Made by a program: the position numbers and the translations under genes
Origin: a virus
Virus record (IMG/VR): IMGVR_UViG_3300010354_000613
Span: 1-24,689 of that record
Direction: 5' to 3' (one strand)
Length of the DNA stretch: 24,689 nt
Notes under the pieces: model-generated
What the model saw: only the letters and a program-made list of their open reading frames with translations
Database searches by the model: none
What the model was told of the DNA's origin: nothing
In this document: piece by piece, positions 2,835 to 15,414 of the stretch
Position numbering within the stretch: the stretch's first letter is position 1
Layout: every line of letters starts with the position of its first letter

Positions 2835-3206
2835 TCAGAAAGGTTCTTCGGGAGTCTCCGGTCGAGTACCCCGACCCTGAGTCTTCGGTGGCTTCACAGA
2901 GATACCCACATCTTCTGCGGCCAACTCCCAAACCGTCTTCTTGTCACCCTTCGCATCCTCATACGACCGGGACGACATTCTGCCGACAACGATGGCTCGG
3001 TCACCCTTCTCAAAGTTCGCGGTGACCGCCTCAGCCAACTCAGCCCAAGTCACACACACAAAAAATGTGGCTTCCTGCTTCCACTCATTGTTGGACTGAT
3101 AACGCCGATTCACCCCAAGTCGGAATGTCGCCTGAGCGATCCCCTTTTCGGTATACCGGATCACCGGCTTCTCGACCATGTTCCCGACAATCGTTACCTG
3201 ATTCAC
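2835..3206 (-). CDS. ssb: Single-stranded DNA-binding protein
   Basis: The 123-residue product has the OB-fold order of SSB: MNQVTIVGNMVEKPVIRYTEKGIAQATFRLGVNRR (split over 1-35), FFVCVTWAELAEAVTANFEKGDRAIVVGRM (about 48-77) and a further strand (KTVWELAAEDVGISV). The short Pro-rich, acidic tail ends in EEPF, like the DIPF tip of bacterial SSB that recruits replication and repair partners. It overlaps the preceding HTH gene by ATGA. It lies directly downstream of the initiator and loader genes, so it should coat single-stranded DNA during phage replication and annealing-based recombination. It is shorter than host SSBs, as phage versions often are. Confidence 0.93.
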   Translation of the reverse strand: MNQVTIVGNMVEKPVIRYTEKGIAQATFRLGVNRRYQSNNEWKQEATFFVCVTWAELAEAVTANFEKGDRAIVVGRMSSRSYEDAKGDKKTVWELAAEDVGISVKPPKTQGRGTRPETPEEPF

Positions 3207-3639: not shown

Positions 3640-4116
3640 TCATGGCATAATTTGACGCATTCCGGATACCAACTCTTGTGGCGTAAGGAGGGTTTGCTGT
3701 ATCTCACCAGCGACTTTCTCGTAGGCACGAAAGAAATCCCGTCGAATCATGTCAGGCTGAGTGGACATACAAATATTCCACCAGCCAATCGCATCCACGA
3801 TCCGCTCCACAATCGGGCTAAACATCGGTTTACCCCTCAGACCATGCTCATCAACCGCGGCACACACCTCGGACCACGCCTGATCGACCGGCATCGGCAA
3901 CATCCCCATAGACGACAGCACAGACTTCCTAATGGCGGCCACCGTTGGGAAATACTCCGAACCGGTGATCAACCTCACCACCGCCACTTTCACCTCGTCA
4001 TACGGCAAATCCTGAAGAAACTCATGCCACACCTCGGCAGTCTCGGAAGTCACCTTCGCCTGCGGAAACCCGGCAACAAGCATCGCCAAAATTGACGCTG
4101 TCTCTTTCCTGATCAT
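3640..4116 (-). CDS. Probable helicase loader-like replication protein, 158 aa
   Basis: The N-terminal part has the pattern ETASILAMLVAGFPQ (5-19), VWHEFLQDLPYDEVKVAVVRLI (29-50), then FPTVAAIRKSV (56-66). This closely follows small phage proteins that load the replicative helicase (G39P-like: an amphipathic helix, a W-H-LL-DLPY-V-AV helix, then P-T-AEIR). The C-terminal half (VDQAWSEVCAAVDEHG ... IGWWNIC ... RRDFFRAYEKV) is also helical. The ATG overlaps the stop of the initiator gene by ATGA. This initiator-loader order beside a candidate origin is the usual phage arrangement and supports the role. There is no ATP-binding P-loop, so it is not a DnaC-type AAA+ loader. Confidence 0.7.
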   Translation of the reverse strand: MIRKETASILAMLVAGFPQAKVTSETAEVWHEFLQDLPYDEVKVAVVRLITGSEYFPTVAAIRKSVLSSMGMLPMPVDQAWSEVCAAVDEHGLRGKPMFSPIVERIVDAIGWWNICMSTQPDMIRRDFFRAYEKVAGEIQQTLLTPQELVSGMRQIMP

Positions 4117-4856
4117 CTTCCCTCCCTCAAAAATTCTTCGATACCGGAGAACCTCGCCGTTCCCGAACTACCACGATTCTGCTCCATCAGCAACCGATCA
4201 AAATGCTTCCTCAACTTCTGAGGCGACCCGATGTTGGCCGCCCAAAACGAATTCGTCGCCACCCACCGAATCACAGACTCAATCAACTCAGGCTCACGCT
4301 CATCCAACCGAATCAACCGATCCATCTCGACCAACCATCCCGCGGTCACCTTCGGTCGTCGCACCCGACCATTCCCGGCTCTCACCCAAGAATCCGCCAA
4401 AAGATCACACAGTTCCTGACACTTGTTATTGGACAGTTCTATGGACAGTTCTATGGATGTATTGGGTGACACGACTGTCACCCCGTCACTACCTCCGGTG
4501 TCACCCCGTACGCCCAAAATGTCACCCCGTAAGACCTCCGGTGTCACCCCGTCAGCCGAACGAGGTGACAACGCTGTCACCCCGAGAATCCGATACCGAT
4601 TCGGCCGCCGATCAGACCGGTAATCCCAAGTACCGCCCTTATTCTCCTCAATTTCCAGCAGACCCTCGTCGCATAGCCGTCGAAGAATCCTCTGAACACT
4701 CCGCTCGCTCATGGACGCTCGCCGTGCGACCCTCCGAACGCTAGGGAATGCGTTAGCCCCATCATCATCGGCATGATCCGCGATGACCAGCAACACCAAC
4801 TTCTCGCTAGGTGGAAGGTCAATCTCCCAAACAAGGGACATGACCTTGATACTCAT
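4113..4856 (-). CDS. Replication initiator with N-terminal winged helix, origin in its gene
   Basis: Residues 14-92 form a winged-helix domain of the HTH_36/phage replisome-organiser kind: PSEKLVLLVIADHAD, FPSVRRVARRASMSERSVQRILRRL, then the wing GGTWDYRSDRRPNRYRI. Residues 93-145 are a low-complexity linker (GVTALSP, GVTPEVL, GVTVVSP, SIELSIELS) encoded by DNA repeats that look like iterons. Residues 146-247 are helical (CQELCDLLADSW, IESVIRWVATNSFW, PQKLRKHFDRLL), like domains that contact helicase or loader. This is the layout of lambda-type O proteins, where the origin lies in the linker-coding DNA. The start overlaps the preceding stop (TAATG). It should bind the iterons and recruit the downstream loader and helicase. 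Confidence 0.8.
   Translation of the reverse strand: MSIKVMSLVWEIDLPPSEKLVLLVIADHADDDGANAFPSVRRVARRASMSERSVQRILRRLCDEGLLEIEENKGGTWDYRSDRRPNRYRILGVTALSPRSADGVTPEVLRGDILGVRGDTGGSDGVTVVSPNTSIELSIELSNNKCQELCDLLADSWVRAGNGRVRRPKVTAGWLVEMDRLIRLDEREPELIESVIRWVATNSFWAANIGSPQKLRKHFDRLLMEQNRGSSGTARFSGIEEFLREGR
4431..4454. repeat. Tandem 12-mer next to the iterons
   Basis: GGACAGTTCTAT occurs twice head to tail (4431-4442 and 4443-4454), followed by a partial third copy (GGATGTAT). It encodes the repeated SIEL in the initiator linker and lies just beyond the iteron cluster. It is less GC-rich than its surroundings, so it could be part of the unwinding region. Confidence 0.8.
4464..4584. repeat. Iteron cluster with flanking inverted repeats (probable replication origin)
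   Basis: TGTCACCCCGT occurs exactly at 4476, 4499, 4520 and 4542, and a fifth copy at 4575 matches 10 of 11 (TGTCACCCCGA). The start-to-start spacings are 23, 21, 22 and 33 bases, close to two, two, two and three helical turns, so the copies face one side of the DNA. Both ends are inverted repeats: GGGTGACA-cgac-TGTCACCC (4464-4483) and GGTGACA-acgc-TGTCACC (4564-4581). The cluster lies within the linker-coding part of the initiator gene. Repeats seen directly; the origin role is inferred from iteron-type phage origins. Confidence 0.75.
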
Positions 4857-5630: not shown

Positions 5631-5831
5631 TTAGATGGGGTAAAACTTCCTTGCCGTTTCGTAGGACAACTCCCACAAATCATGCAACCCTTCGACTAAG
5701 TGTTCTGACGGAACGGATGACTCAATCCATCCGGTCGGAGTCCACTTCTGCTCCACAATGCCAGCATCAGAAACCTCAAACCGAAACAACGAATGCGGTC
5801 GACCATCACGTTCAGTAGCGAAGTATCGCAT
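5631..5831 (-). CDS. Small protein overlapping the RelA/SpoT-like gene, 66 aa (possible antitoxin or partner)
   Basis: The product runs MRYFATERDGRPHSLFRF, an acidic turn, QKWTPTGWIESS, then an acidic helix (LVEGLHDLWELSYETARKFYPI). The frame has four more codons upstream, but the ATG at 5831 overlaps the preceding stop as TGATG. The pattern (short beta strands with W-x-W-like positions, then an acidic helix with ETAxxF) is one I associate with small actinobacterial and actinophage proteins of unknown function. Translation coupled to a GNAT-RelA/SpoT fusion, small size and acidity make it a candidate neutralising partner, but nothing in the sequence proves that. It is the last gene of the accessory block before the 73-base gap. 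Confidence 0.7.
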   Translation of the reverse strand: MRYFATERDGRPHSLFRFEVSDAGIVEQKWTPTGWIESSVPSEHLVEGLHDLWELSYETARKFYPI

Positions 5832-7402
5832 CACAAAGCCCAATCCGGTTTCTGCAAAATCAAAGTACCAATAGTCAACAGAGTAGCCAAACCTGCCGGT
5901 CGCGGAGTCTTAGAGGCAATATCAACCATCGCCTGCCACGCCTTACGCCGCTTTGACTCAGGTTGACCCTTATCACGATAAACCTCGTAATGAGGATGAG
6001 TCTGCTCTTTAGACTTCATCGCATCGGGGGTCAACATCTGCAACTCGACAGTAACCCCATCCTTCGTCAACTTCAGAGTCATAGAGTCAAACGGATCGCC
6101 GGGTTGCCAAAAATTCTTGTTACGGCTCGAATATCCGCGTCCCTCAAACTCTTTCAGAACATCCTGCACCGCTTCCGTGTAACGGTCGCCATCCACAATC
6201 ATCGTGTAACGAACCGAATCGGAAATAGCCTTAGCCGCCGCCTGTAAATCTCCTCCATGCTCACTCTGACCTTCATTGTAAATCTTGCGAGCCAAACTCC
6301 CGGTCGTCTTCAACCGTTCACCTAACTGACCCAAATCGGCTCCATGACGAGCTGCAACCTCCAAAATGGTTTCCGTGAACTCGGGTTCGATTTGCTCGGC
6401 ACGGTAACGAAGTTGCATGGCGAGCCTTTTCGCATCCGGACCATACTTCGGGTCAGGTTCAGTATCAGGAGCAAGAGGATGTTCAGCCTTCATAGCCAAA
6501 TTCATCTCAGCCTCTGCCAACTTCAACCGATATTCAGCGTCCATCATCAATGAGACATGACGCGTAAGAGGAACAAGATTGTTGTCGATCCTCCGTTTTG
6601 TTTCTACTAGGTGTGCCCGTGCTGCGGCCAGCACCGTTCGCATCTCAGCAAGCGAACGAATTCCGGAATGACCCTTCCAACGCTGAGTTGCCGCAAAACG
6701 ACCAGCCTCCGAACGAGAAGCAAAACGAGCCTTCTCGACCGAGCCACTTGTCAAATCCAACTCATAAACATCAAAGTACCGGGACATTGAAGTTGACGGA
6801 ACTGACCTAAAACCTAACTTTTCATAAAAGCCTTTTGCGCCTGCGTCAGCGTTCAATCTCAACCGTTTTTTGCCCATTGATCGTGCCGCATCAATAGTGT
6901 TTGCGATCAGAGCCGAACCTATACCAGCGGTGTTGCCGAACGACGCAATGATCGAAACAAACACTTCGTCATCTTTGACTGCCGACAGACCACGCAACGC
7001 CGGGTCAGAAGGTGCTGTGCGAAATGAAACGACTCCCTCAACCTTTCCGCTAGGACTTCTTGCAACCAAGGTTTGAGCGTTGCTGTGATAAGCAGCTAGT
7101 TCGTCGTCATCTTCAATCTGAGGGAAAAGTGCGTTGTCAATAGCATCAAACAACGCACTTTTCTCGTCTACAGTCCGTGAATTGTCTTGAGCCAATACCT
7201 GATCAATCTCGCTGAGTAGGTTTACGCGATCTTTGTAGTTCTGATGACTGATTTTTCCAAACTTGTAGCCACGAGACTCTAATTGATTTAGTTGACCTCG
7301 CATGTCATTTGAATCAATCGAAGCAACATCCTTGTTTTCCCATCTGACATCGGCCGCAAAACGACCAGCCTCAGATTTAGAACCAAAACGAGCCTTCTCC
7401 AC
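5831..7402 (-). CDS. Tagged GNAT acetyltransferase fused to a RelA/SpoT-like domain
   Basis: The 523-residue product is modular. Residues 3-24 are the recurrent KAxFxSxSEAGRFAAxxRW module. Residues about 95-215 are a GNAT: a VEGVVSFRTA strand, an acetyl-CoA loop GNTAGIGSALI (156-166) and KGFYEKLGFRSV (190-201). Residues 224-245 repeat the module (KARFASRSEAGRFAATQRW). A helical region follows, and residues about 360-485 resemble the RelA/SpoT nucleotidyltransferase fold: RLKTTGSLARKI (363-374), AISDSVRYTMIV (392-403), NKNFWQPGDPFDS (428-440), VELQMLTPD (452-460) and HPHYEVYR (469-476). The last two parallel the ELQxxTP and HxLYE elements of toxin-like members. A short hydrophobic tail ends the protein. 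It could transfer pyrophosphate or a nucleotide to a nucleotide or tRNA; activity is unproven. It overlaps a small partner gene. Confidence 0.75.
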   Translation of the reverse strand: MEKARFGSKSEAGRFAADVRWENKDVASIDSNDMRGQLNQLESRGYKFGKISHQNYKDRVNLLSEIDQVLAQDNSRTVDEKSALFDAIDNALFPQIEDDDELAAYHSNAQTLVARSPSGKVEGVVSFRTAPSDPALRGLSAVKDDEVFVSIIASFGNTAGIGSALIANTIDAARSMGKKRLRLNADAGAKGFYEKLGFRSVPSTSMSRYFDVYELDLTSGSVEKARFASRSEAGRFAATQRWKGHSGIRSLAEMRTVLAAARAHLVETKRRIDNNLVPLTRHVSLMMDAEYRLKLAEAEMNLAMKAEHPLAPDTEPDPKYGPDAKRLAMQLRYRAEQIEPEFTETILEVAARHGADLGQLGERLKTTGSLARKIYNEGQSEHGGDLQAAAKAISDSVRYTMIVDGDRYTEAVQDVLKEFEGRGYSSRNKNFWQPGDPFDSMTLKLTKDGVTVELQMLTPDAMKSKEQTHPHYEVYRDKGQPESKRRKAWQAMVDIASKTPRPAGLATLLTIGTLILQKPDWAL

Positions 7403-9265
7403 GGTTCTACGCCCCGTTTATGCTGTCTTGTTGCGCCAAAAATTCAGCATCTTCATCGGGTGTACTCATAGTCATTCCGACCATTTTGTCGCCGTTGTAG
7501 GCGATCAATGTTCCGCCGCGACCACTTTCCAACGGCAAAAATTTGAACGTTGTAGAGCGAGCAGAACCAGTTTTTCCGACCATAACTGCGACAGCACTTG
7601 CCTTGATAGAAAACCTTCTACCATCCTCAAGACGAGCAATAACACGATCCTCTTGACTACTGCCCTTCGCATTATCAATGGTTTTCGAGTAGAGCGTTTC
7701 CATCATCACACTCTGTTGACCGGGCTTACCTGCAATACCCTTGAGCGTTCTCGTTTGCTCAGTACGGCGAGTCTTCATGTCTTCAGGTGATAACCGATCT
7801 TGAGCCTTGGGATTTGCGTCCTCATACGATACAAACTTGGGCTTCTTACCAAATGGGATTTGATCAAGCCTCACAGCAGTAAATGGAGTCAACATCCATT
7901 CATTGCCCTCGTCATCAGTAGCAACAGTCTTCCAAATATCATCTTTTGCAGCAGGTCCCTTCGGGAACTTCACGCCTTGAGCAACCAGCGTCGACAACTG
8001 CTTTTCAGACAAAGAATCAAATGCGGCCACAGACGAAGGCTCATCTGTCGAGGCAGTTGCAGAATTAGAAGCACCCTCGGTAAACGGCATAGTGACCGGT
8101 GTCCGGAAAGGATGCCCGGTCAAACTTTCGTACCATGACATTGCCCTTGCAAGTTGACGTTTGCGTTGTTCTAACGCAACCATCATTCTGTCAGTCTTCC
8201 TCGTAGCCATGCGCATTTGAGCAATTCGACGTTCCAAATCAAGAATTTGCCGGTGCAGTTTGTCAGCCTTCGCTTCATTCGCATCCGGTTTAGCGGTCGT
8301 TGCAGGTTGTTTCGCCGCTCCAGTCGTCTTTTTCGGGTTATTTTTCCACCGCTGTTCTGCCGCAAACCGAGCTGCCTCAGAACGAGAAGCGAACTTTGCC
8401 TTCTCCAGCACCCGACGCGAACTCAAAGACACTTCGACCACAGAATTAGCCTTCGTCACCTCAGCAACAACGGCCGCCCACACATCAGGGCTATTGGAAA
8501 GCAAAGCAAAAGGCTCCAAAGCCTTCAAAACCTTTTCCAACGACGAATCCATAGTCGCATCGTATATCGGCTCAGTAAACCCCATTTCATCCTCGCCCTG
8601 AGACTCGACAGCCCACGCCTCATCATAAAAATCAAGGTCTTTCACGATGCACCACCCAAAATCAACTCCAACTTGTCAGTCGGATTACCCAACTCATCAT
8701 GCTCCAAATTGGCGAAACCCATTGACCGCCAAAAACCCTCAGACCCCTCGTCCGGGTAAACACCCACCGTCCGCTTCCCCTGCCTCGTCGCATCCTCCAC
8801 AATTGATGCGAACAACGCCGAACCAGCCTTATCAACAAGACCGGTTGACAGAAAATCGAACACCACAGGGCCGCCGAAAGTGTCGTGAATCAAAGCAACA
8901 GCCCCAACCCGATCACCAAGACGCAAAGTAGCAACCCTCAAACTGTTCTTTCGATCCGTCAAAGCCTGACCGAACAAGCCATCTACATCCTGCATAACTA
9001 AGCGAATCCGCTCAGTTGCGACCTCGTCACCGGAAACACGATCCGCGACCTCAGCCAGCGTCCTCATCACCATGCCACGCTGACCGGCGATCAACATCCG
9101 ATCCTCAGTCGAACCAACCGAAACAAAATCGACCGAACCACCCGACCGTCGCATCTGAGCCAAACCAGCCTGCAACCGGGAAGCCAACGCAGGGTTCATA
9201 TGACCATTCCATCGCTGATTAGCGGCATAACGCCCAGCCTCCGACCGGGAAGCAAACTGAGCCTT
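6668..9265 (-). repeat. Four dispersed copies of a KAxFaSrSEAgRfAAxxRW module
   Basis: A near-identical segment of about 22 residues is encoded at 9265-9200, 8402-8337, 7396-7331 and 6733-6668, spread over three consecutive genes. Invariant positions are K-A-x-F, S-x-S-E-A, R-[YF]-A-A and R-W. DNA of the copies is similar but not identical, pointing to divergence after duplication or to selection on the protein. The remaining parts of the three proteins are unrelated, so the module behaves like a transferable tag or docking element. Confidence 0.85.
7407..8645 (-). CDS. Tagged accessory protein of unknown function, 412 aa
   Basis: The N-terminal 75 residues are acidic (DEAWAVESQGEDEMGF, then helices). 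The recurrent module is at 82-103 (KAKFASRSEAARFAAEQRW). A Lys/Ala-rich linker follows, then a long coiled coil (about 125-165: ADKLHRQILDLERRIAQMR ... MVALEQRKRQLARAM), then a Ser/Thr-rich linker. The C-terminal domain (about 205-400) contains EKQLSTLVAQGVKFPKG, DDIWKTVATDDEGNEWMLT, RLEDGRRFSIKASAVAVMVG and GGTLIAYNGDKMVGMTMS, which suggest a beta-rich fold. I cannot assign that domain. It overlaps the preceding GNAT gene by ATGA and ends 5 bases before the next tagged gene, so all three are one transcription unit. A virion-packaged or host-directed role is a guess based on the shared module. Confidence 0.7.
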   Translation of the reverse strand: MKDLDFYDEAWAVESQGEDEMGFTEPIYDATMDSSLEKVLKALEPFALLSNSPDVWAAVVAEVTKANSVVEVSLSSRRVLEKAKFASRSEAARFAAEQRWKNNPKKTTGAAKQPATTAKPDANEAKADKLHRQILDLERRIAQMRMATRKTDRMMVALEQRKRQLARAMSWYESLTGHPFRTPVTMPFTEGASNSATASTDEPSSVAAFDSLSEKQLSTLVAQGVKFPKGPAAKDDIWKTVATDDEGNEWMLTPFTAVRLDQIPFGKKPKFVSYEDANPKAQDRLSPEDMKTRRTEQTRTLKGIAGKPGQQSVMMETLYSKTIDNAKGSSQEDRVIARLEDGRRFSIKASAVAVMVGKTGSARSTTFKFLPLESGRGGTLIAYNGDKMVGMTMSTPDEDAEFLAQQDSINGA

Positions 9266-9304
9266 CAAAACCTCAGTATGAGCAGTAAATCGACTGTTAT
9301 GCAC
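8642..9304 (-). CDS. Tagged GNAT-family acetyltransferase, 220 aa
   Basis: Residues 14-35 hold the recurrent module (KAQFASRSEAGRYAANQRW, ending NGH). Residues about 120-215 look like a GNAT: strands SLRVATLRLGDRVGAVALIHD and GPVVFDFLSTGL, a loop VDKAGSALFASIVEDAT (157-173) at the acetyl-CoA site, then GKRTVGVYPDEGSEGFWRSMGFANL (176-200), the usual FYxxxGF end in the form FWRSMGF. The acetyl-CoA loop lacks the full R/QxxGxG/A signature, so binding is uncertain. The frame starts with GTG at 9304 after an in-frame stop, without a clear ribosome site; a TTG at residue 13 after GAGG is an alternative and would start right at the module. The target is unknown. Confidence 0.7.
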   Translation of the reverse strand: MHNSRFTAHTEVLKAQFASRSEAGRYAANQRWNGHMNPALASRLQAGLAQMRRSGGSVDFVSVGSTEDRMLIAGQRGMVMRTLAEVADRVSGDEVATERIRLVMQDVDGLFGQALTDRKNSLRVATLRLGDRVGAVALIHDTFGGPVVFDFLSTGLVDKAGSALFASIVEDATRQGKRTVGVYPDEGSEGFWRSMGFANLEHDELGNPTDKLELILGGAS

Positions 9305-12439: not shown

Positions 12440-12606
12440 TCGTCCTCAGACTCCTTCAAAAGCAACCCTAGCAACTGCACCCCAACCCCCATAAAGGTCA
12501 AAATCAGCCCGGTGCGGAAAACCGAACCGGACACCGTCATCAGCACAAACCCAGCCCCGACCACACTCCAACCAAGACTCACCACTTCTCGCATGAACCG
12601 ATTCAT
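12436..12606 (-). CDS. Two-helix membrane protein, 56 aa (second holin or antiholin candidate)
   Basis: Translated by hand between the Thr-rich protein and the holin: it starts MNRFMREVVSLGWSVVGAG and ends LLLKESEDE. Two transmembrane stretches are clear, about 9-25 (VSLGWSVVGAGFVLMTV) and 33-50 (GLILTFMGVGVQLLGLLL), with a basic N-terminus and acidic C-terminus. The start overlaps the upstream stop as TGATG and the end overlaps the holin start as ATGA, exactly the spacing pattern of its neighbours, which makes a real gene very likely despite its size. Pairs of small membrane proteins are common before actinophage endolysins; which one is holin and which modulator cannot be told. Confidence 0.75.
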   Translation of the reverse strand: MNRFMREVVSLGWSVVGAGFVLMTVSGSVFRTGLILTFMGVGVQLLGLLLKESEDE

Positions 12607-13814
12607 CACTTCTTGCCTTTCTTTGAGGGACTACCGCTACCGGTCGAGGTCGGGACAGGCATCACCAGCACAGTCGCTGTGGCCGCCACAACCACCCTCC
12701 GTTGCCCCACATTGATCACAGATCCAAGGGGCACATACAGGTCAAACTGCCCACCAAACACATTGACCTGATCCTCAAACTCCTCCTTCACATTGTCCGG
12801 AGCATCAGACAAAGCGACCGCTATCGCATCCGCCTGCTCCTCGGTCAAATCCGCGTCAGCGATTGACTCGACAAGCTGCTCAACCGCGTCATCAGACAAC
12901 AACTCCAAACTCTCCGGAGCCAACTCCTCAGCAATATCGGCCGCCGACTGCTCAGCAAAATTCACCTGCTCAAGAGGCACATCATCCTCACCAGCAGGAT
13001 CATCACCAGCATCTACCGGGTCAGTCGTGGGAACATCCGTCGCATCCGGAACAAGACTCTCGGTGGAGTCGATACTTGTCGAAGAGCCGGGAGCAATGGT
13101 GCTTGTACTGGTCACCGGTAAAGATGACGAAGGTACGACCGTTGTCCGCGGCGGAGGGGCTACCGCAGGGACAGTTGTCGTCGTCGCATTTATCGTCGTT
13201 GTAGTCCATGACACCTCAGTCGTAGTAGTTGTAGGGAGATCCACGCTAGTTGACGGCTCTACGACCGTGGTCGTAGTCGTTTCAACAAACACGCTGGTAG
13301 AAGGCACATTTTCGGTTGTCGTCGTAACCTCGGCAACCGTAGTAGTTGTCTCCTCGGGCAAGGTCGTCGTCAAAGTAGTTGAAGTGGACGGCTCGACAGT
13401 CGTCGTCGTTGTCGCATCCGGTAACACCGGTTGCCCGGTGAACCTCAACTCATATTGCTGGTTCCAGCCACCGCCCACATACCAACCGTCAGGGTTACCG
13501 CAACAAACCGCCGCCCTCAACCGATACAAACCTGCTGGTAGACGAAGCGAAATATGCGACTGTAAACCGTTCCAATCGTCATTAGCGGCAAGCAGCTCGC
13601 CAGTCGTCGCATCGTAAAGCCATAAATGTGGATCAGACGGAAATTCCGGCGACATAAAAGTCTCCGCGAGAAAGTCGGTGTCGCTCGAGAACTCAACAAA
13701 AAAATCGGTGGGCGAAGTCACAACGATTGAAGTGGACTCCTCGGCACGAACCCCCATCGGCCGCCCACCCCAAAGCAACACCAACGCCACCACCAACGGT
13801 AAACGCCAACGCAT
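12606..13814 (-). CDS. Secreted Thr-rich protein with N-terminal beta domain, about 402 aa
   Basis: A signal peptide is clear (MRWRLPLVVALVLLWGG ... VRA, cut near residue 24). Residues about 28-130 look like a pre-peptidase C-terminal type beta domain: DFFVEFSSDTDFLAETF, then HLWLYDATTGELLAANDD, then GLYRLRAAVCCGNPDGWY. Residues about 133-240 are a Thr/Ser/Val linker of TTTT-V repeats, then an Asp/Glu-rich segment and alternating acidic helices (AADIAEELAPESLELLSDDAVEQLVESI, split here by residue numbers about 285-345). Near the end VVVAATATVLVM is hydrophobic, then a basic tail (KKGKK). The ATG at 13814 overlaps the stop upstream (TGATG). It sits in the lysis region, yet looks like a host cell-surface protein. 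It could act in the envelope during lysis or superinfection exclusion; function unknown. Confidence 0.75.
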   Translation of the reverse strand: MRWRLPLVVALVLLWGGRPMGVRAEESTSIVVTSPTDFFVEFSSDTDFLAETFMSPEFPSDPHLWLYDATTGELLAANDDWNGLQSHISLRLPAGLYRLRAAVCCGNPDGWYVGGGWNQQYELRFTGQPVLPDATTTTTVEPSTSTTLTTTLPEETTTTVAEVTTTTENVPSTSVFVETTTTTVVEPSTSVDLPTTTTTEVSWTTTTINATTTTVPAVAPPPRTTVVPSSSLPVTSTSTIAPGSSTSIDSTESLVPDATDVPTTDPVDAGDDPAGEDDVPLEQVNFAEQSAADIAEELAPESLELLSDDAVEQLVESIADADLTEEQADAIAVALSDAPDNVKEEFEDQVNVFGGQFDLYVPLGSVINVGQRRVVVAATATVLVMPVPTSTGSGSPSKKGKK

Positions 13815-13999
13815 CACTTATCAGTAAGAAAAGACGCGACCCCTCGCTCACCGACCAAAGTAGACAACCACGCAAACAACCCAGCCGAAACCGGGACAAC
13901 TAGCATCATCACCTCGGGCTTATCCCTGAACCATGATGCGATCATGCCAAGAACAAGACCCTTACCGATCTGATCAACTATTTGGTATGTTTGTCGCAC
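13814..13999 (-). CDS. Small membrane protein, 61 aa
   Basis: The product is MRQTYQIVDQIGKGLVLGMIASWF, then DKPEVMMLVVPVSAGLFAWLSTLV, ending LTDK. A weakly hydrophobic first helix (about 8-23) and a clear transmembrane helix (30-47) are visible. The start is GTG at 13999; a GGTGA sequence about 11 bases upstream is a weak ribosome site, and the frame stays open higher up without ATG, GTG or TTG. The stop overlaps the start of the Thr-rich protein (TGATG). A holin-like or envelope role in the lysis region is likely but not shown. Confidence 0.6.
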   Translation of the reverse strand: MRQTYQIVDQIGKGLVLGMIASWFRDKPEVMMLVVPVSAGLFAWLSTLVGERGVASFLTDK

Positions 14000-14023: not shown

Positions 14024-14164
14024 TCAATCGGTCTGCACGGGGGTTGGTGCTCGTTCCGCCTGCAATTGAGTGCGAAGAATCGCCACCTGTAACCACGCTT
14101 GCTTCAACTGCTCCAACAGTTCATTGATCACCATCTGAACATCGACTTGAGTTTCGTCGTTCAT
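14024..14164 (-). CDS. Coiled-coil miniprotein, 46 aa
   Basis: An ATG at 14164 overlaps the tail-fibre stop as ATGA and opens 46 codons to TGA at 14026-14024. The protein is almost one amphipathic helix (QVDVQMVINELLEQLKQAW, then QVAILRTQLQAE) with a short Pro-Thr tail. It belongs at the junction between tail fibres and the lysis cassette. Short coiled-coil proteins at that place occur in many phages, where they may attach to fibres or assist their folding; the role here is inferred. It is missed by length cut-offs of 60 codons. Confidence 0.65.
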   Translation of the reverse strand: MNDETQVDVQMVINELLEQLKQAWLQVAILRTQLQAERAPTPVQTD

Positions 14165-15414
14165 TTTTCCTCCAACTCGCTGAGTCGCCGGTCAAGGTCT
14201 TTTATCCCGGCTGTGAGCAACGCTACCATCCACGATGTATCAATCTGCTGATACATCGGATACCCATTCTCCCCGACAGCGTCCTTCGTTCCGGAAACCG
14301 CGACCGGCACAATGTCCTCAACTTCGTGGGCAAGAAAACCGTCAAACACCGTTTCCGATGGATCATCAATAAATTTGAATCGTTTCGGCCGCAGCTGACG
14401 AATTCGAGCGATCCCATCATCAATGTCAACAACATCCCTCTTCAACCTGTAGTCGGAAGATGTGTTATATGAGGTCGCATTATTGGCGTTGGAACGAATG
14501 TCTCCCGAGTGTGTCGTTCCTGCCAAGAAAACAGCGTGTGCGTTCGGTGTGAAACCGCTAGGTGATGCTCCGCCTGTGCTGATCCACGAAATGCCGACAC
14601 CGTAACCACAAGTGGTTCGCAAGTTTCCGTATGCGGTATAGCCGAACAGCGTGGCGTTTGAGTCGGTAGCACCAGTACCTAACTTCACATAGTTCGTTTG
14701 GTTTCCCGAGTTCGTTGCAGAATATGAGGAGGTTGAGGTGATCGGCAAATCAATGTTGATGATTCCTGTAGTACCATTGACAACCAAATACGATGTGCTT
14801 CCATATCCAAGTTCGACACTTTGAGCAGATCCTGTGCTACTGCCAAAACCAACAAATCCCATTCGCGTCGCATCGACGAGACGACCAAGACGGTAGTACG
14901 CGGTTGTCCAATCAGAACCAGTAGTTCTACGAATCAAACGCAAATCAACATAATCACCATTCGTTGTAGTGGCAGATGTTGTCCACGGTGTCAGAGTTGT
15001 ACCCGATGTACTACTCAAAGAACCCATTGAAATTGTTTCTGTCCCTGTGACGGTCGGTGAACTCAGCGACGGCGAAGTAAGAGTGATCCCAGCCAAAGTC
15101 AATGCACCACTCGATCGCGTCAAATCAACCGAAGTCGTACCAATATTTACCGATGGCAGTCGAGCCGCGGCAATAGTTCCGGACGAAATATTCGTGGCAT
15201 TCAAAGTTGTCAAATTCGCCCCGGACACCGACCCGAACGAACCCGACCATGTGCCAGTCGTAATCGTCCCAACACTCGTCAAAGACGAACTAACAACATT
15301 TGATGCCAGCGTCGTACCAGTAAGCGACGAAGCATCAGGACTTCCGATGGCCGCAAAAGCGGCGTTCAAATCCGATGCTGTAAGTGTTTGACCACCACTC
15401 CACGGGTACGGCAT
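14161..15414 (-). CDS. Tail fibre with C-terminal S74 intramolecular chaperone, 417 aa
   Basis: The N-terminus (PWSGGQTLTASDLNAAFAAI) carries the TAsDlN motif shared with two other appendage proteins of this window, a likely attachment element. Residues 25-300 are Ser/Thr/Gly-rich beta repeats. From about 318 the S74 domain begins: SDYRLK (320-325) gives the catalytic Ser320 and Lys325, with self-cleavage expected just before Ser320. RPKRFKFID and GFLAHEVEDIVP (359-370) are the further family marks, and the C-terminal helix (IDTSWMVALLTAGIKDLDRRLSELEEK) drives trimer formation. The chaperone folds the fibre trimer and is then released. The mature fibre would recognise the host surface. Confidence 0.88.
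   Translation of the reverse strand: MPYPWSGGQTLTASDLNAAFAAIGSPDASSLTGTTLASNVVSSSLTSVGTITTGTWSGSFGSVSGANLTTLNATNISSGTIAAARLPSVNIGTTSVDLTRSSGALTLAGITLTSPSLSSPTVTGTETISMGSLSSTSGTTLTPWTTSATTTNGDYVDLRLIRRTTGSDWTTAYYRLGRLVDATRMGFVGFGSSTGSAQSVELGYGSTSYLVVNGTTGIINIDLPITSTSSYSATNSGNQTNYVKLGTGATDSNATLFGYTAYGNLRTTCGYGVGISWISTGGASPSGFTPNAHAVFLAGTTHSGDIRSNANNATSYNTSSDYRLKRDVVDIDDGIARIRQLRPKRFKFIDDPSETVFDGFLAHEVEDIVPVAVSGTKDAVGENGYPMYQQIDTSWMVALLTAGIKDLDRRLSELEEK

Follow-up and report, generated by a model that had tools for sequence, protein, structure and literature searches.

Why should a viral gene carry, in its middle, an array of near-identical short repeats flanked by inverted copies, and what would read them? 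The question is raised by a 24.7-kb fragment of viral DNA, a record of 24,689 bases that was analysed whole and is referred to here as the window.

The repeat array and the gene that carries it

The word TGTCACCCCGW, also written TGTCACCCCG[T/A], occurs exactly five times on the plus strand, starting at positions 4476, 4499, 4520, 4542 and 4575, with steps of 23, 21, 22 and 33 bases. The first four copies (4476..4486, 4499..4509, 4520..4530 and 4542..4552) read TGTCACCCCGT and the fifth (4575..4585) reads TGTCACCCCGA. Two inverted copies lie on the minus strand, each separated by a 4-base spacer from the iteron that it faces: TGTCACCCAAT (4461..4471) faces iteron 1 and TGTCACCTCGT (4560..4570) faces iteron 5. 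The facing pairs read GGGTGACA-cgac-TGTCACCC at 4464-4483 and GGTGACA-acgc-TGTCACC at 4564-4581. The first of these inverted copies is retained in three relatives (L007-L009); the second is retained in two others (L020 and L021) and degenerate in L007-L009. Five copies, their spacings and inverted repeats with 4-base spacers at both ends had been listed in the preliminary description of this DNA, and all are present where it placed them. Its further view, that the spacings come near to whole numbers of helical turns, holds fairly well for 21-23 and only loosely for 33, yet 22 and 33 are both spacing peaks among the homologs.

Allowing at most one mismatch to the iteron word, the whole 24,689-base record contains the five array copies and a single copy in reverse orientation; the backwards pattern has no match in it at the same threshold. 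At two mismatches, 17 occurrences were seen in the window against 14.8 expected, which is not significant, so the claim of a repeat is based on the near-exact, clustered copies only.

The array lies within a predicted initiator gene (4113..4856, minus strand) that encodes 247 amino acids and was assigned by Pfam HTH_36, by phrog_391/1032/2514 and by an AF2 model. The protein comprises a winged helix (aa 3-90), a disordered linker (aa 96-141) and a helical C-terminal domain (aa 143-247). In profile searches its N-terminus matches HTH_36 (6.6e-16) and phrog_391, 'replication initiation O-like' (1.7e-27), and the C-terminal PHROG matches are to DnaD-like loader and O-like families. Foldseek searches with the wing returned Fur and MarR regulators, plasmid initiators and the N-domain of DnaD, with a weak E-value in every case. 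In the AF2 model the recognition helix carries residues 51-63, and the part encoded by the array is the disordered linker; the repeats are therefore placed as in an in-gene origin, between the regions for the DNA-binding and C-terminal domains. Residues E51 to R56 of the recognition helix, which covary with the iteron, are encoded at 4689..4706 (minus strand).

The initiator stop is overlapped by a helicase-loader gene of the G39P type (3640..4116, minus strand; Inhibitor_G39P, PF11417, 1.6e-6). This match is above the cut-off and places a loader gene next to the initiator gene. A gene for single-strand binding protein (SSB; 2835..3206, minus strand) lies downstream of the loader, and L007 has the same families in the same order. 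The HTH_36, phrog_391 and PF11417 matches bear out the earlier placement of the array in the linker-coding part of a winged-helix initiator followed by a loader gene. In a search for near relatives among named phages, the window gave no matches.

Several other genes of the window deserve mention. One (626-1525) encodes an Amidoligase_2 protein (3.8e-29). Three adjacent genes (5831-9304) share by eye a motif like KARFASRSEAGRFAAxQRWxxH, present in four copies, with an acetyltransferase-like stretch next to two of them. The product of 12606-13817 has a signal-like N-terminus followed by long Thr-rich low-complexity stretches, and the C-terminus encoded by 14161-15414 resembles, by eye only, a tail-fibre intramolecular chaperone (SSDYRLKRDVVDIDDGIARI..). 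All of these are on the minus strand.

Conservation of the word and its covariation with the recognition helix

On the coding strand, nine bases of the word read GVT in iterons 5, 4 and 1 (coding nt 274, 307 and 373) and RGD in iterons 3 and 2 (329 and 350), and the reversed word reads SP at coding nt 287 and 386. GGTGACA occurs 7 times in the initiator gene against a null mean of 2.3, and none of 200 synonymous-codon shuffles reaches 7. In L007-L009, whose proteins are ~60% identical to the window initiator, CGRGGTGACA is retained at all five positions, except that L008 and L009 differ by one base in their first copy. The third copy of these relatives reads EVT instead of RGD because compensating indels shift it by one base, to 328 from 329 in the window, with the DNA word retained. 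The array is selected as DNA and not as protein, as seen from the three reading contexts, the change of frame and the excess over synonymous shuffles; selection at the DNA level is also what an in-gene origin calls for. The expectation that relatives would retain repeats and spacing held for all five copies, which keep almost the spacing of the window, one of them in another frame.

Initiator homologs were collected from IMG/VR and bacterial genomes and reduced to 188 representatives, 183 of them testable. A 7-mer repeat in the linker was significant against synonymous shuffles in 140 of the 183 genes and not significant by this test in 43, with a mean repeat count over all genes of 4.55 versus 2.32 in the shuffles. 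Where a gene had at least four copies, the word nearly always (141/144) occurred in at least two strand/frame contexts. The distances between copies on the same strand have maxima at 17, 22 and 33, and 35% of spacings are divisible by 3, which is the chance level. The iteron word varies from clade to clade; exact CGRGGTGACA is confined to the initiator gene in three relatives of 47-62 kb. For the phages Amelia, D77 and 14E30.1 the whole-gene repeat test was not significant, though their linkers do show the expected words. L010 (4001-4843), L042, L044, L051 and L114 have unrelated iteron words, including GGGGGCTCC, CTAGGGGTA, GAGTTCC and TTCCGGG, and the recognition helices of these clades read VETNRIRT, SESQARR, KRQVSNH and ERGAR. 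The initiator of L039 (3001-3681 of IMGVR_UViG_3300016474_000578) combines an N-terminal HTH_36 domain and seven GGGTGACA-like iterons with a C-terminal DnaA_N match (5.5e-8, above the cut-off), so this phage initiator apparently borrows DnaA domain I.

With the iteron written T-G-T-C-ACC for base numbering, base 2 is G with Arg at residue 56 and T with any other residue. The counts were 44/4 versus 3/58 in the first (training) set, with 7 of 109 cases discordant, and 12/0 versus 0/23 in a hold-out of 71 later-fetched representatives that were labelled by the same DNA procedure, come from the same collection and are phylogenetically not fully independent. This wording postdates the rule as originally fixed (GTC class versus TGC/TTC), which gave 4/0 versus 0/21 on the hold-out. 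Since the class labels were derived on the first set, it is the hold-out figures that carry the weight. In phylogenetically independent pairs that differ at residue 56, the change for the GTC class was concordant in 11 cases, opposite in none and absent in one. L039 and L041 have GGGTGACA with Arg at this residue, whereas their relative L048 has Tyr, with GGGTGCAA at the seven places of L039, a concerted switch. Asp or Glu at residue 51 goes more loosely with T or G at base 3 (6/10 versus 1/11 on the hold-out, p = 0.024), and this rule is ranked below that for Arg56 because of its weaker performance there. The named phages checked fit as well: LESphi3 has Gln with seven copies of TGCACCC, D77 has Arg with TGTCACC and VpM-pA2SJ1 has Gly with TGCGG. 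The repeats are thus very probably binding sites of the phage's own initiator, located within the gene for that protein, and to judge by the covariation Arg56 would read the G of T-G-TCACC.

The AT-rich zone and a second repeated element

Just beyond the array lies a zone (4401..4460) with 55-60% AT against a gene mean of 45%, the proposed unwinding region; an AT-rich tract, modest in the window, is thereby found directly downstream of the iterons. It includes two tandem copies of the 12-mer TGGACAGTTCTA (4430..4453, plus strand), which reads TAGAACTGTCCA on the coding strand. This tandem had been suggested as a candidate unwinding region, and its place is indeed that of the AT-rich zone of the homologs, in which a conserved word is repeated. 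When 140 genes are aligned on their last iteron, AT content rises sharply over the following 60 nt, by 0.147 at 20-40 nt, and the zone has an AT fraction of 0.519 versus 0.453 (sd 0.0027) in synonymous shuffles. In lambda O, phi80 15 and P22 18, used as controls, the annotated iterons or origin coincide with the regional AT maximum or directly precede it.

The conserved word, AACC[AG]TC, occurs 185 times in the post-iteron zone versus 35 in shuffles, with one copy in the opposite sense, and its density is 13.2 per kb in the zone versus 0.3 in the remaining gene. The copies are mostly 10-12 nt apart and encode EPS/KPS, NHQ/NRQ or RTI/LTV depending on the frame; the word was found again in the later-fetched set. 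Closely paired copies number 127 within initiator genes versus 4 in 1.8 Mb elsewhere, and those four, at two loci, are 402-462 nt from the initiator start used, so they probably belong to the same initiator gene past the called ORF. AACC[AG]TC accompanies all three main iteron classes (24/38, 34/42 and 31/34); as an element common to phages with different iterons, it probably has a reader that is a common component. Its occurrence did not follow a crude sorting of the C-termini by presence or absence of YP[RKH].

The strict word AACCRTC is absent from the window, as it is from lambda, phi80 and P22. In the window two copies of AACTGTCC at a distance of 12 nt occupy the element's place, and L007 and L020-L022 have AACCATCC; the 12-bp tandem is probably a variant of the AACC[AG]TCA element of the homologs. 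A possible parallel to AACCRTCA is the DnaD recognition element of Bacillus subtilis oriC, a strand-specific single-strand element in the unwinding zone beside the initiator sites (PMC10201434). That element has paired TnnT as its core, AACCRTCA in its G variant does not provide this, and a reading of AACCRTCA as a DnaD TnnT element was rejected on that ground.

A putative origin of replication inside the initiator gene

That an origin can lie within a gene is textbook knowledge for lambda. We consider it highly likely that the array belongs to an in-gene iteron origin of this kind, at which iterons would be bound, the AT-rich zone melted and a helicase placed via the loader. The array would form the iteron portion of the phage's origin of replication, which would lie within the gene for the initiator, as the lambda origin lies within O. 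The N-terminal winged helix of the initiator would bind the TGTCACC words, and the bound copies, on roughly one helix face, would form an initiator-DNA complex that destabilises the adjoining AT-rich zone. The repeated 12-mer (AACC[AG]TCA in homologs) would be exposed as a single strand and held through this repeated element, after which the C-terminal domain and the G39P-type loader would place the host DnaB helicase. We infer this succession of initiator binding, AT-zone melting and helicase loading from the sequence.

The arrangement resembles the lambda origin in gene O, as well as phi80 gene 15 and P22 gene 18, in having mid-gene iterons followed by an AT-rich tract, with a loader or helicase gene next. 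The origin described for lambdoid phages, situated midway along O, comprises iterons and an AT-rich tract, and O binds A/T-rich single strands (PMC7466680). Unlike lambda, the window has another iteron word, facing inverted copies at both ends of the array, an HTH_36 domain, and a loader of the G39P rather than the P type. The same domain and linker array are found in HTH_36/O-like initiators (phrog_391, phrog_1032), for example those of Pseudomonas phage LESphi3, Vibrio phage D77 and Arthrobacter phage Amelia, from which the window differs in the iteron word and in how many copies there are; the group also varies in its C-terminal domain (DnaA_N in L039). The SPP1 module likewise consists of an initiator gene followed by a G39P loader, and the window shares this succession of initiator and G39P-family loader. 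In the Vibrio satellite PLEs, the initiator domain covaries with its origin (PMC8263062).

Cumulative GC skew, which had been predicted to turn at the array, is monotonic in the window and also in a 52-kb relative; a 47-kb relative has no turn at the array and has its skew minimum elsewhere. Because the skew follows the coding strand there, we treat it as uninformative.

The array might instead be an operator for autoregulation, the winged-helix protein blocking transcription inside its own gene while replication starts elsewhere. The HTH_36/MarR-like fold is common to repressors and the covariation shows DNA recognition, not its purpose; however, the sites lie ~270 nt into the gene, the array of homologs is typically followed by an AT-rich zone that carries a conserved element of its own, the C-terminal matches are to replication initiators and loaders with loader and SSB genes adjoining, and the layout equals that of the mapped origins of lambda and phi80, all of which makes an operator improbable. 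A role of the inverted repeats as mRNA hairpins that control translation or termination, the direct repeats being incidental, is very unlikely. Both fold well as RNA (-15.9 and -14.5 kcal/mol) and their L007 counterparts also fold, one via G-U pairs, but the majority of the copies are direct repeats that have no partner, covariation ties the word to a DNA-binding helix, and the second element is strand-specific and adjacent. Iteron arrays of plasmids can act as centromeres or incompatibility sites, and the repeats might be targets of a partition system or of some other DNA-binding factor while the initiator acts at a different site; the covariation, however, is with the initiator of the very same gene and we recognised no partition gene in the window, so this too has very little probability. 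That the linker needs its apparently repetitive GVT/GD/SP peptides, which the DNA repeats merely follow, is barely credible given one DNA word read in three contexts, spacings divisible by 3 at the chance level of 35%, an excess over synonymous shuffles and a linker predicted to be disordered.

As a putative in-gene origin, the window joins a known, lambda-like kind, and the interesting part is the readable code together with the shared element. Since each such gene would specify a protein together with the site that it binds, the sequence by itself would suffice for reading out a recognition code. For the large HTH_36 phage group we favour, on balance, a two-part reading: a clade-specific iteron dictated by a few helix residues (Arg56 with G at base 2, Asp/Glu51 with T/G at base 3) may be combined with a common AACC[A/G]TCA unwinding element that is helically phased and strand-specific. 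Neither the helix-site code nor AACC[A/G]TCA had an earlier description in the literature searched, whose scope left subscription journals largely outside, and a search on AACCATCA and on iterons within genes of phages other than the lambdoid ones brought up nothing of relevance. Most phages, to our knowledge, have no assigned origin. If the two-part reading is true, the start of replication would be predictable from one gene in hundreds of uncultured phages, the group would constitute a natural library of DNA-binding helices matched to their sites, and AACC[A/G]TCA would be a candidate for a shared single-strand loading signal, comparable in its role to DnaA-trios or the DnaD element.
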